64,000 nucleotides of DNA from an uncultured Lachnospiraceae bacterium (GTDB lineage Bacteria; Bacillota; Clostridia; Lachnospirales; Lachnospiraceae), in the NCBI GenBank assembly GCA_905234245.1, contig CAJOGN010000032.1, positions 1 through 64,000 on the forward strand, given 5' to 3'. Positions 43,706-50,997 of the stretch are shown in pieces (positions within the stretch are counted from its first letter, which is position 1; every line of letters starts with the position of its first letter). The notes below the pieces were generated by a model. It was not told the DNA's origin, did no database searches, and was given only the letters and a program-made list of their open reading frames with translations. Made by a program: the position numbers and the translations under genes.

Positions 43706-45835
43706 ATGAAGAATATAGCCAAGCGTTACGGCGTATATGTGTTAATATCCTTATTTATAGCAATCTATTATGAATTATTCAGAGAAGCTCGTAATTACTT
43801 TGTCTTAGGGGCTTATTATGGACTGTTAGATGAAGAATATACTCCTAAGCTTTTCTTGAAGCTGTTACTATTCTTCGCAGCATCACTTGTAGTTCTATTA
43901 CTACTTAACCGCTATAAGCACATTTTCATCTACATAGACAAATACAGATATTTTATTGGAATTGGAATAATTCTTATATGCACTATATTCGAGCTTAGTG
44001 GTTCTTCTATTGCCAGCTTCTACGAATATACCGGGTATAACTATGGAACCAAGGAAGAACTATACTCCCAGGGGGTTATATGGGGATTTCCAAGGATGAT
44101 TCGAACTGACGAATGGGCCACTCTGACACCACTTAATTTTGCTCAGGAATACAATGATTACGGGGCAACTACAGAGATATTAAGAGGGACCACAACCGAT
44201 GTAACTACCTTCTATGCTAATCCAAGCTTCTCTCTGGCAACACTGTTTCGTCCATTTCTGTGGGGATATCTGCTATTAGGAAGCGCTAAGGGACTTGCTT
44301 TCTATTGGAGCAGTCGTATGGTTTGTCTGTTCCTTGTTACATACGAATTCGGCAAGATTCTTATGAACAACAAGAAGATATTAAGCACTGCTCTAGCGTG
44401 TCTCGTTACATTTTCTCAGACTATACAGTGGTGGTATGCTACTAATGGTCTTGTGGAAATGTTCATATTTGGCGAACTTGCTATAGTACTACTATACTAT
44501 CTGTTGAAAAACAATGTCTTATGGCAAAAGGCCCTTATTTGCCTGGGGCTAATTGAGTGTGCCGGCGGTTATCTGTTATGCTATTATCCTGCACAGCAGG
44601 TGCCTCTTGCCTATGTATTCGGAGCAATTGCACTATATGTCCTAATACATAATCGAGAGCTAATTAAAGGAAGAGATATTCTGCTTCTTATTGGAAGTGT
44701 TATTATCTTCGGCGGACTGATTGCACTTGTTCTATACAATTCAATAGATACAATTATGGCGACTATGAATACAGTATATCCTGGAAAGCGTGTTAACTTA
44801 GGTGGTAACTCAAGACTTCCAGAACTGTTTACATATATTGTAAGTCTGTTTACACCAATTAATGACAAGATGGTGCTTCGTGATAATGTATGTGAAATGT
44901 CTGTCTTCTACTCCATGTTCCCAATAGGACTTGGACTTTCTATCTATACTATGATTAGGAATAAGAAGGCTGACCTACTGTACATATTTCTTATAATAGT
45001 TGAGGTATTCTTCCTATTATTCTGCGTAGTTGGTCTGCCACCAATCATAGCTAAGATAACATTCCTTAGCTATTCATTTAACAATCGTGTGGCTAGCATT
45101 ATAGGATTTATCGATATTGTTTTGCTCATTCGTAGTTTGTCAGAAAAACGCACAAAGAAAAATGCGAATGACAAGCCTGCCATAATTATAGTTAAGCTAA
45201 TAATTGCAATCGCGGCTGGAATTCTTATGTCTTATTTCCTAAGTGTAGGTGGGCTTAAAGCACCTATGATTATATGGGTTCCATCAACAGTACTAATAAT
45301 ATGGATTATCTATCTTGTACTTAGGGATACTACTGATTGCAAGGAACAGCTTGCCATCACACTAATATGCGTAATTAGTCTGACTGGACTGTGTGTCAAT
45401 CCTGTCCAAAAGGGAATTGATAATGTTACCAATAATGAGATTACGTCTGAGGTAAGAGAAATTGTTGAAGATGAGCCAGATGCAAAATGGATTGTTATTA
45501 ATCCAGAGCATACCCCTAATAACCTTCCTGTTACAGTAGGCGCCAAGCTAATTAATTCAGTCAACACATATCCTAACATGGAATTGTGGAAGAAGCTTGA
45601 CCCTACCGGACAGCATGAGAATTTATATAACAGATATGCTCACGTTGATTTTGATGTGGTTGATACTGAGACCCAATTCAAGGAAATGCATGCGGATAAT
45701 ATCAAAGTTGATACAAACTACAATGACCTTTACAAACTAGGGGTCAACTACATACTAAGTCATAAGGAATTAACTGCTCCTAATCTAGACTTCAAAAAGA
45801 GGGCTGGAATGTACTATATATACAAGGTTAAATAG
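43706..45835 (+). CDS. Large membrane protein, GT-C/YfhO-like (intact paralogue)
   Basis: 709 aa, about 12-14 hydrophobic segments, then a soluble C-terminal domain (~570-709) with NSVNTYPNMELWKK and LGVNYILSHKEL. The first long outside loop has IRTDEWATLTPLNFAQEYND; the Asp-Glu pair is where GT-C glycosyltransferases keep their catalytic acid (inference). It is the intact copy of the frameshifted 18889-20866 gene. It lies alone on the plus strand within a minus-strand locus. RBS AAAAAGGGAG precedes the ATG. Its 3' end overlaps the SGNH gene's 3' end by 8 bp with no terminator between them. Confidence 0.7.
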   Translation: MKNIAKRYGVYVLISLFIAIYYELFREARNYFVLGAYYGLLDEEYTPKLFLKLLLFFAASLVVLLLLNRYKHIFIYIDKYRYFIGIGIILICTIFELSGSSIASFYEYTGYNYGTKEELYSQGVIWGFPRMIRTDEWATLTPLNFAQEYNDYGATTEILRGTTTDVTTFYANPSFSLATLFRPFLWGYLLLGSAKGLAFYWSSRMVCLFLVTYEFGKILMNNKKILSTALACLVTFSQTIQWWYATNGLVEMFIFGELAIVLLYYLLKNNVLWQKALICLGLIECAGGYLLCYYPAQQVPLAYVFGAIALYVLIHNRELIKGRDILLLIGSVIIFGGLIALVLYNSIDTIMATMNTVYPGKRVNLGGNSRLPELFTYIVSLFTPINDKMVLRDNVCEMSVFYSMFPIGLGLSIYTMIRNKKADLLYIFLIIVEVFFLLFCVVGLPPIIAKITFLSYSFNNRVASIIGFIDIVLLIRSLSEKRTKKNANDKPAIIIVKLIIAIAAGILMSYFLSVGGLKAPMIIWVPSTVLIIWIIYLVLRDTTDCKEQLAITLICVISLTGLCVNPVQKGIDNVTNNEITSEVREIVEDEPDAKWIVINPEHTPNNLPVTVGAKLINSVNTYPNMELWKKLDPTGQHENLYNRYAHVDFDVVDTETQFKEMHADNIKVDTNYNDLYKLGVNYILSHKELTAPNLDFKKRAGMYYIYKVK

Positions 45836-47447
45836 CTATTCTGCCTTCATACTGTCCATAGTTAATATAATGGATGACGTAGGCTGCAAGGTCCCAGCCA
45901 AATGCATTGCGAAGGTCCTCATAGTTATAAATATACGTCCATAAATTGAAGTTGGCTGACGCCTGGCGTCCTTCATATAAGCCATTGGTTAGGTAGTGGC
46001 TAAATAGAGCCACATCATCGCCACCAAAAGCATTCTCAAGGTCAGGGTAGTGACCATTGTAATAATAGTAGTCATATACAGGTGAGAAGTCTACATTGAA
46101 GAACGAATGAACCGGGTTCTGCAATGTGTTGCAGCCTGTTCCCTGTCTTCCTTCCGCTTGTCCATTGAATAAATAATGATAATAATATGCAGGATAGTTA
46201 TCCATGCCGAAGGCTGCTCTAAGGTCAGCATACTGATTTCTGTATGATGTTACATCGAAGTTCTCACTTGCCTGCCTTAACTCCTTCATACCGAAATTAA
46301 TAAAATGTTCTATGGCTCCATTAGTGTCATTTCTAAATAACATGTAGATATCATCATAACCTTCTACATAGGTATTAAAGTCATATACAGCACTATAATC
46401 TATACCATTATAGATAGTCTCCCCCTGCCTCTTGGTTAAAAGGTCAGCGAATTCTTTCTCCCTTGTGGCTTCAGCATTTCCATCATTATTATTATCTATT
46501 TCTGCGAAAGCAACATAAGTTGCATTAGGATCGACTTCATCTAAGATAAAGCAATTATCCTTCTGCCAGTCAGTATTATATATATTCTCTCCCGTTGATG
46601 AATTAATCAAACTGAACTTGAAGCGTAGATTCTCGTAATCAGAGTCGTATGCATTAATCTTAATTATATAGTGATCGTAATCTAACTGTGCTCTTATATC
46701 CGCAATGCCTGTCTTTCCCATTGCATCTTCTACAGCCGATGTTATCTTATTCATCCCACTTTCATTAGGATGTAATAGAAAGAAATCGCACATATCCGTT
46801 GTGTAGTCAAGCTTCCCTCTCAAATCAACATAATAATCTCCGTATTTCTGTGATGCCTGTTGAATTGTCTTCGCAAAAGAATCAATATTCTCCATTTCGA
46901 CCTCACCAAACATCGCACAAGCATACGGTGCAATCAGAATTAATCTCACATCATCATAATAATTATGAATTCTCTTAATTAACTGATTATATCTTATCTG
47001 AAATAGTCCACGTGTCACATCTGGATCATAAGCATCATTAACTCCACCATATACGGCAATTACATCAGGACTCTTTTTCTTGCCAAGTATCTGATATCTG
47101 CCACTATTGTTAAATGAAGTAACATCACTATCAGGAGTGGCTACTCCGGAGCCACCAACTGCATTAATCATGTCCAAATCATAGCCTGCATTATCTGCAT
47201 ACTGATAACACCATATATTAGTTTCAGGCATCTCATAGCTCTGATGACTGCCATAAGGGCCATAATACGTGTTCCAAGAGGTGCCTTGTGTAATATAGGA
47301 AGAAATAGAATCACCTAATACAGATAATGATGGACGTTCTGAATATGAAAATGTAGTTCTAGCTTCGCTAATCATAGGAAAGGTAGCGATAGTTGCAAAC
47401 GCAAAAATCGCTACCATCAAAGTTATTATCTTATATTTATTACTCAT
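45828..47447 (-). CDS. Secreted SGNH/GDSL esterase with C-terminal EGR repeats
   Basis: Probable carbohydrate or wall O-acyl esterase. 539 aa: N-terminal signal/anchor (~7-28), SGNH domain ~35-245 with block I SVLGDSISSY, block III YGGVNDAY and the final LLHPNESG carrying Asp/His. A beta-rich linker (~250-330) follows, then four repeat units from ~340, ending EGRIAI. The start ATG overlaps the stop of the transglutaminase-like gene (ATGA), so the two are coupled. The last ~100 residues are nearly identical to that protein. An esterase that removes acetyl groups would pair naturally with the acyltransferase at 40162. Confidence 0.85.
   Translation of the reverse strand: MSNKYKIITLMVAIFAFATIATFPMISEARTTFSYSERPSLSVLGDSISSYITQGTSWNTYYGPYGSHQSYEMPETNIWCYQYADNAGYDLDMINAVGGSGVATPDSDVTSFNNSGRYQILGKKKSPDVIAVYGGVNDAYDPDVTRGLFQIRYNQLIKRIHNYYDDVRLILIAPYACAMFGEVEMENIDSFAKTIQQASQKYGDYYVDLRGKLDYTTDMCDFFLLHPNESGMNKITSAVEDAMGKTGIADIRAQLDYDHYIIKINAYDSDYENLRFKFSLINSSTGENIYNTDWQKDNCFILDEVDPNATYVAFAEIDNNNDGNAEATREKEFADLLTKRQGETIYNGIDYSAVYDFNTYVEGYDDIYMLFRNDTNGAIEHFINFGMKELRQASENFDVTSYRNQYADLRAAFGMDNYPAYYYHYLFNGQAEGRQGTGCNTLQNPVHSFFNVDFSPVYDYYYYNGHYPDLENAFGGDDVALFSHYLTNGLYEGRQASANFNLWTYIYNYEDLRNAFGWDLAAYVIHYINYGQYEGRIAI
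45838..46150 (-). repeat. Direct repeat copy 1 (3' end of the SGNH gene)
   Basis: About 310 bp coding for the two final repeat units, with only scattered differences from 47453-47766 (by eye over 90% identical), mostly silent. Confidence 0.8.
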
Positions 47448-49101
47448 ACTGCTACTCTTCCCTCATACTGTCCATAGTTAATATAGTGGAGGACATAGGC
47501 TGCGAGGTCCCAGCCAAATGCATTGCGTAAGTCTTCATAGTTATAGATATATGTCCATAGGTTGAAGTTGGCTGATGCCTGTCTTCCTTCATATAAGCCA
47601 TTAGTTAGGTAGTGGCTAAATAGAGCCACATCATCTCCACCAAAAGCATTCTCAAGGTCAGGATAGTGACCATTGTAATAATAGTAGTCATATACAGGTG
47701 AGAAGTCTACATTGAAGAATGAATGAACCGGGTTCTGCAATGTGTTGCAGCCTGTTCCATGTCTTCCTTCTCTTACTCCATGGAAGAGATAGTGATTATA
47801 ATATGCTGGCAGATTATTATAGCCAAATGCCACTCTCAAATCAGCATATTCATTACGATATGACTGCACACTGAAGGTTGACTTGCCTTGTCTTCCTTCT
47901 GGTATTCCATAATTAACAAAATGCTCTAAGGCTTTATTAGCATTACTTCCATAAGCCTTCTTAACGTCAGCATACGCATTTACATAATATTCAAAATCAT
48001 ATACATCAGCATAATCTATTCCCTTGTATACTGTTGGATATACAGGCGCTGGAGCATAACCATAATCATATGGGCATGAATCTCTACCTATCTTGTCCCA
48101 GAAGCTTTCTAATGTGTGAGCTTCCCTACCTAACCTTAGCAAGGTCTTATCACTTATATCGAAGTAATCATAGGCAATCTCAGATTCTCTGTCCGCATCA
48201 TCATCATCCCATGTCACATCAACGTTATACCAATAGCCATCTATCTTAGCCTGATTCCACTCATGTGAATCACTTGTTACTGAATATGCAGGAATTCCAC
48301 TGGCATAGCAAAGCAGGGCAAATGCCTCTGAATAACCAGCACATACTGTTGCCCCACGTGAATTAAGGAATACTGAAGCACAGCTCTGAGAATAGTTTGC
48401 ATATCCATCATAAGAGCAATTAATAACCATTAGGTCGTGAATCTTCTTCTCTCTATCATAAGCACTATCATTAGGATTTACCTGATCAAGATACCAGTTA
48501 ATCTTATTCTTAATCTTACTTGCTGCAGCGGCACGGTCACTTCCCATGGCGAAGTCGTCAAATACTTCTAGACGAACTGTACCAGACTGCTTACCAGAAA
48601 CAGTAGATATATTAATAAGAGTATCTAAGAAATAAAACTCAGGAGTATCATACAATATTAGATGACATACTTCTTCATATTAGAATAGCTTACTCTAGAT
48701 GTCAGATAAGGGTCATATCCGCCAACGCGCTCCCATTGACAATCAGCCCCACCTTCAATCATTGGGTACAACATAGCATATAAATCATCATATAGCTTCT
48801 TCTGATTGTCAGTTAACTTATCATTATATGTATAGAAAGGCTGCGAAAAAGATTTCCAATAATCGCTTGTTCCTTTCTTAGAATATAAGAAATACTCAGA
48901 CTGATTTTCCCCATTATCAGCAAGTACCTTGTTATATTCTTCTTCACTAATCTCATCTTCTACTACAACAGATTCTTTCAAACCACCTGTTGGCTTGTTG
49001 GTTGCTGCTACGGTTGTAATGTTAGTCATACCCACAATGCCTAATAGCATAGTTAGCGATAATGCTATGGATAATATGATTCTCGTCTTCTTATGCTTCA
49101 T
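47444..49101 (-). pseudogene. Frameshifted secreted transglutaminase-like protein with EGR repeats
   Basis: Two ORFs (48658-49101 and 47444-48655) form one protein. The first has a signal peptide (MKHKKTRIILSIALSLTMLL) and an N-terminal domain ending SNMKKYVI-stop. The second, opened only by a TTG, starts LYDTPEFYFLDT and carries the transglutaminase core: Cys in TVCAGYSEAF, His in SDSHEWNQ, Asp in NVDVTWDD. Four repeats ending EGRVAV follow. One missing base in ATCTAATATTG (for example TAyATATTG) would restore the frame. RBS GGGAGAAGG. It lies 22 bp after rmlC and overlaps the SGNH start. It could be true decay, programmed slippage or sequencing error. Confidence 0.75.
47453..47766 (-). repeat. 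Direct repeat copy 2 (3' end of the transglutaminase-like gene)
   Basis: Partner of 45838-46150. The near identity ends at the third repeat unit, where the two proteins diverge sharply. Confidence 0.8.
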
Positions 49102-50760: not shown

Positions 50761-50997
50761 TATGCACGAAGTATACAATAGTATGACTTCGCTGATATTT
50801 CTTCGCTAAGAGTATACTTATGATTAAGGTATTCTCCACTTAGAAACTCTGACCAAGACCGCTCCTCAATCCGACATCGTGTCGGCTCGTCGCTAATCGC
50901 GTCATCCCTGACGCGAGTTCTTGTCACTGAATTAATCATATGTATCCTCTAAGCTCGAACTAAGGCTTCAGTCATACATTGTATACTTCTTAGCATA
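50761..50997. repeat. ~237-bp long imperfect inverted repeat (MITE-like or large structured RNA)
   Basis: This fills most of the 311-bp gap between rmlA and the DUF2804 gene. TATGCACGAAGTATACAAT at the left pairs with the complement of ATTGTATACTTCTTAGCATA at the right. GCTAAGAGTATACTTATGAT pairs with the complement of TTAATCATATGTATCCTCTA further in. The centre has two perfect hairpins, CCGACA/TGTCGG (50871-50885) and CGCGTC/GACGCG (50898-50915). No protein is encoded and no clear target-site duplication is seen. Confidence 0.65.

Follow-up and report, generated by a model that had tools for sequence, protein, structure and literature searches.

A dispersed palindromic repeat with a TwoAYGGAY centre is a predicted CsrA decoy in Lachnospiraceae, with arms that may be kept paired by template switching

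The nested inverted repeat found upstream of rmlA at positions 50761-50997 of the window (the whole 64,000-nucleotide stretch of DNA analysed here) is a further member of TwoAYGGAY (Rfam RF01731), a known but uncharacterised RNA family. The explanation that we favour, with somewhat better than even confidence, is that of a dispersed palindromic repeat with TwoAYGGAY at its centre, which is predicted to act as a decoy for the regulator CsrA and whose arms are kept paired by template switching. We propose that the RNA strand would offer paired GGA-loop hairpins to the CsrA dimer and that the copies would jointly form a spread-out decoy for CsrA, rather than a switch for rmlA. Template switching between the arms during replication would preserve their pairing, and would also invert the centre and lengthen the arms into flanking DNA.

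The minus strand at 50795-50964 passes the curated cut-off of the RF01731 covariance model (51.1 against 43 bits) and scores 144 bits with a model built for the genus, R1; other Rfam families gave only weak, sub-threshold matches to the element (Ysr224, caiA). A sequence-only reading of this DNA had offered a non-coding RNA as one of its options, and this is supported by the RF01731 match together with strong covariation. The coordinates and the nesting given in that reading were borne out, as arms and hairpins can be read from the sequence, and so were its statements that the element contains no ORF (mechanical ORFs merely enter from the flanks) and lies 30 bp from the rmlA start codon (50731-50729, minus strand). 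The fold energy of 50761-50997 was -78.1 kcal/mol for the plus strand (z -8.3) and -89.7 kcal/mol for the minus strand (z -6.5), with none of 200 dinucleotide shuffles as good in either case; the palindrome is therefore real on both strands. Its outer arms, 50970-50989 and 50768-50788, pair with each other, the former having a sequence specific to this locus. Inside them, in the sense of the minus strand, the 5' inner arm of the core (about 50930-50959) and the 3' inner arm (about 50800-50829), which bears the conserved box CTTAGCGAAG, were placed by the fold and the Rfam match and, for the latter, a search for the box. Hairpin 1 (50897-50916, minus strand; TCGCGTC-AGGGAT-GACGCGA) carries a GGA in its CANGGAUG loop that resembles a CsrA site and reads AGGGAU in the RNA, whereas the loop of hairpin 2 (50871-50885, minus strand; CCGACACGATGTCGG), CACGATG or ACGAU in the shorter RNA form, has no GGA, a variant found in other copies too. 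The RNA strand is that of both neighbouring genes, rmlA (glucose-1-phosphate thymidylyltransferase, PF00483; 49853-50731, minus strand) downstream and a gene for a DUF2804 protein (PF10974; 51043-52215, minus strand) upstream. Elsewhere in the window, at 45828-48655, two adjoining proteins share a near-identical C-terminal region of about 200 residues, and one of them has a GDSL lipase domain.

Conservation was followed with model R1, which was built from 23 copies of the genus and used to align 86. In this alignment, which was fitted to the structure and so favours pairing, pairing is found in 97.2% of cells and 42 of the 45 pairs have changed on both sides, neither value being reached in any of 500 shuffles. 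Compensatory changes in relatives, which the sequence-only reading had put forward as a check, are thus abundant. The loop of hairpin 1 contains GGA in 85 of the 86 copies, nearly always as CANGGAYG, on stems that vary. In hairpin 2 the GGA is kept in most copies and lost in seven of the 86, as in the copy at rmlA. The paired GGA loops are a property of the family, and the copy at rmlA has a single one, in hairpin 1. A longer subtype with a core of about 180-215 nt was also observed (L243, L247-L249, L253, L130:3454-3663 and L140), its length coming at least partly from an additional GC-rich hairpin within the 3' half (L243, loop table).

What is a G-U mismatch on one strand reads as A-C on the other, and the ratio of the two therefore reveals which strand is under structural selection. 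Across the 86 genus copies the GU:AC ratio in the core was 59:9 on the model strand. Pairing of the arms continues beyond the Rfam core in nearly all copies tested, the exceptions being two weak ones, and has a median length of 65 bp in the genus, with a sequence that differs from locus to locus. Counted outwards from the core, the GU:AC ratio in these outer arms was 67:2 for the first 20 bp, 62:28 for 20-40 bp and 86:108 farther out than 40 bp. The GU excess in the core and in the innermost 20 bp of the arms is as expected from selection on one folded strand, and the ratio beyond 40 bp points to no strand-specific selection there, even though the arms remain mostly complementary. Arms in other genera gave 46:58, with no bias, and counts for the hairpins there were too few to show a direction. 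Folding of one DNA strand could be another source of the GU bias.

The RmlA of the window is closest, among named genomes, to that of the Pseudobutyrivibrio MAG RUI423 (89%), followed by that of P. ruminis DSM 9787 (86%), so the window comes from a relative of Pseudobutyrivibrio, a rumen bacterium. The genome of the window (G000) holds further copies, as the sequence-only reading had suggested checking: 17 exceed the RF01731 cut-off, and since the window copy was found separately and the sets returned by the searches are not identical, a fair count is about 20. In seven further species of the genus the number of copies ranges from 5 to 36. In a family sample of 250 Lachnospiraceae genomes, nearly all of different genera (one genome per genus bar one), the element was present in 35, with copy counts per genome that are to be read as "at least". 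Relatives in the Lachnospiraceae that have the element carry from one to over 50 copies; there were 53 matches in the MAG Lachnospiraceae bacterium S10_Bin3, 10 in P. ruminis DSM 9787 and eight in MAG RUI423. All 17 of the adjacent pairs listed, from about 11 independent loci, are arranged head to head; one tandem (+,+) pair was noticed elsewhere in the family (G178:C36:54401-54869). Two palindromes (L246:2001-2083 and L250:1967-2059) have TwoAYGGAY arms without the GGA hairpins, the stem of L246 being very long and nearly perfect, and these are probably core-deletion derivatives.

G000 has one csrA gene (G000:C16:57732). In the family sample csrA was present in 34 of the 35 genomes with the element and in 89 of the 215 without it (Fisher p 5e-11, a phylogeny-naive value); the exception, G179, has one copy of the element near a contig start in a genome that is 93% complete. 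The csrA gene is linked with motility. As it tracks both motility and phylogeny, its co-occurrence with the element does not equal binding. The form of the loops and this association make it probable that the TwoAYGGAY copies act as a decoy for CsrA, an RNA-binding regulator. Such a role has already been proposed from motif matches (PMC4333381), and what is new relative to that proposal is the copy number, the orientation, the co-occurrence with csrA, the strand bias and how the arms behave. A literature search returned no publication joining CsrA with a reading of TwoAYGGAY as a MITE.

The element comes and goes between species. Empty sites, another check raised by the sequence-only reading, were found at orthologous positions: G000 has 9 and 24 bp between the genes where G001 and G007 hold the element, and G007 has a gap of 18 bp where G000 holds it. 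Half-deleted copies occur among the species. In-place inversion is seen too: with a core identity of 98-99%, the same element lies the other way round in G001 than in G007 at one locus, and in G006 than in these two genomes at another. At two pairs of loci (L103/L227 and L104/L133) flanks that are about 97-99% identical enclose quite different cores. The L092 site in G000 was set aside as an empty site because one arm is still there, which makes a deletion product more likely. In L072 the gap after gene 10 (G001:C44) carries a short palindromic repeat of another kind, GTGAGTCTAATCA...TGATTAGACTCAC, at the site where G000 has TwoAYGGAY. The flanking stretches G000:C9:15900-19700 and G006:C14:171000-175700, from two species, are 91-98% identical, above most of the orthologous genes compared, which suggests a recent transfer.

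The sequence-only reading had also considered a MITE. The element is indeed a dispersed, multicopy, palindromic repeat that is polymorphic for presence and absence. No target-site duplication was seen by eye at the sites compared, which are too diverged or too altered by deletion, and a search with the arm box CTTAGCGAAGAATTA found it, in the sites examined, at TwoAYGGAY copies and not at transposons. The distribution of Y1/RAYT transposases does not follow that of the element, and no Y1 gene lies nearby at the sampled loci. A partner transposon was rejected and the element is not established as a MITE. One alternative, which we regard as unlikely, is that it is a single-stranded-DNA mobile repeat, akin to REP/BIME or attC-like hairpins, in which one folded DNA strand would be the target of a recombinase or transposase and the RNA would play no part. 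This would account for copies that are dispersed, polymorphic and inverting, for mismatches conserved inside the arms, for the head-to-head order of the listed pairs and even for the GU bias, GT being the better-tolerated mismatch in DNA as well. However, neither the arm box nor the Y1 transposases led to a partner enzyme, and the CsrA-type loops and the association with csrA would be left unexplained.

The position of the copies relative to genes bears on two further alternatives. With a simple coding-score gene caller, 107 copies had genes on both sides, and the orientations of the upstream and downstream genes were close to even (-- 34, ++ 29, +- 23 and -+ 21), in a count that enters orthologous copies separately and whose numbers are non-independent. 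A bidirectional transcription terminator or a protector of mRNA 3' ends, dispersed between genes, would fit the many copies that lie 35-60 bp beyond gene ends and some truncated copies that close a gene with a hairpin and a T-run (L033, L035). It is nonetheless improbable, as 21 of the 107 copies lie between divergent genes, the arms are not followed by an excess of T-runs and the role would not select GGA loops; more widely, neither promoter nor terminator signals were enriched around the copies, including on the model strand. The sequence-only reading had named a leader RNA as an option. A cis-acting 5' leader that controls translation or attenuation of rmlA is suggested by the shared strand, by the 30 bp between the end of the element and the start codon and by the Rfam type of the family, Cis-reg. 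That type is a label outside the covariance model, and over the 107 copies the near-random orientation did not bear out a cis placement. The element is missing upstream of the RmlA gene in both P. ruminis DSM 9787 and MAG RUI423, and in the discovery paper (PMC2864571) the motif was scored as probably an RNA but not as cis-regulatory. Conservation as an rmlA leader is thus unsupported and was rejected as the role of the family, and for the copy in the window we consider it highly improbable.

The outer arms appear to have been copied from neighbouring DNA. On crude gene calls, 31 of 109 copies have an arm that runs at least 9 nt into a predicted coding sequence. In G007 the element sits between two convergent genes, A and B. 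These are not neighbours in G000 and G004, and there the protein ends are FIASSFVSKQ.. for A and CGCEYGE for B. Gene A of G007 and G001 instead ends FIASSFLGCEYG.., and the added stretch is an inverted match to the 3' end of B. As the CGCEYGE ending of B is identical in G000, G004, G006 and G007, the end of B is ancestral and the C-terminus of A was replaced. At a second locus a gene ends ELVPMC, as it does in G000 without the element, and in G001, G006 and G007 its last codons and stop recur as an inverted copy on the far side of the element. Inverted copying of a coding end is clear at the first locus and supported at the second. A further apparent case, the convergent genes ending YINN/YIDN beside the L074/L099/L093/L127 copies, was dropped since both ends are the same in G000, whose arms are wholly different.

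Template switching between inverted repeats has been described as homogenising arms and inverting spacers (PMC8604942) and as creating and maintaining RNA hairpins (PMC8794818). Arms that pair without strand bias, together with an inverted copy of a gene end, are consistent with such switching at the DNA level. We give almost no credence to an inert repeat whose palindromy is upheld by template switching alone, since the unbiased arms beyond 40 bp (86:108) and the solo palindromes lacking an RNA core (L246, L250) would fit it but the near-invariant loops and the strong excess of GU over AC in core and inner arms would not.

Much of the covariation of the outer stem would then be arm copying at the DNA level, so that pairing there is no evidence of a functional RNA stem, and the count of G-U against A-C mismatches separates the layer selected as one folded strand from the layer copied as DNA. 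A bolder form of the CsrA decoy proposal, which we hold tentatively and consider possible but doubtful, is that TwoAYGGAY is the centre of a self-spreading Lachnospiraceae palindrome that supplies tens of scattered CsrA sites per genome, grows its arms from host DNA by replication template switching and at times rewrites the ends of adjacent genes. If the decoy proposal itself holds, the Rfam label of this orphan RNA family is incorrect, and an RNA that binds CsrA from many dispersed copies becomes directly testable outside the Gammaproteobacteria.

Like MITEs and REP/BIME repeats, the element is short, non-coding, dispersed, palindromic and extragenic and often occurs as inverted pairs; unlike them, it has arms that differ by locus and a core that is under strand-specific structural selection, and no target duplication or partner transposase was found for it. 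With the CsrB/CsrC/RsmX/Y/Z sRNAs it shares GGA-in-loop hairpins that would suit a CsrA dimer. Those sRNAs are encoded by one or few genes with many sites, whereas TwoAYGGAY is spread over many dispersed copies of two hairpins each; its CsrA sites are predicted from sequence, and a promoter scan of the copies gave no enriched signal. Homogenised arms, inversion of the spacer and arm-to-arm copying are features in common with hairpins maintained by template switching (PMC8794818, PMC8604942), and relative to these the process would here act on a multicopy bacterial RNA family and extend into coding ends. The structure and loops are the same as those of TwoAYGGAY in Rfam (RF01731), save that hairpin 2 of the copy at rmlA lacks the GGA. 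Rfam presents a 168-nt cis-regulatory motif, whereas the motif found here forms the middle of a dispersed palindrome, is flanked by outer arms particular to each locus and shows no preference in its orientation to genes.
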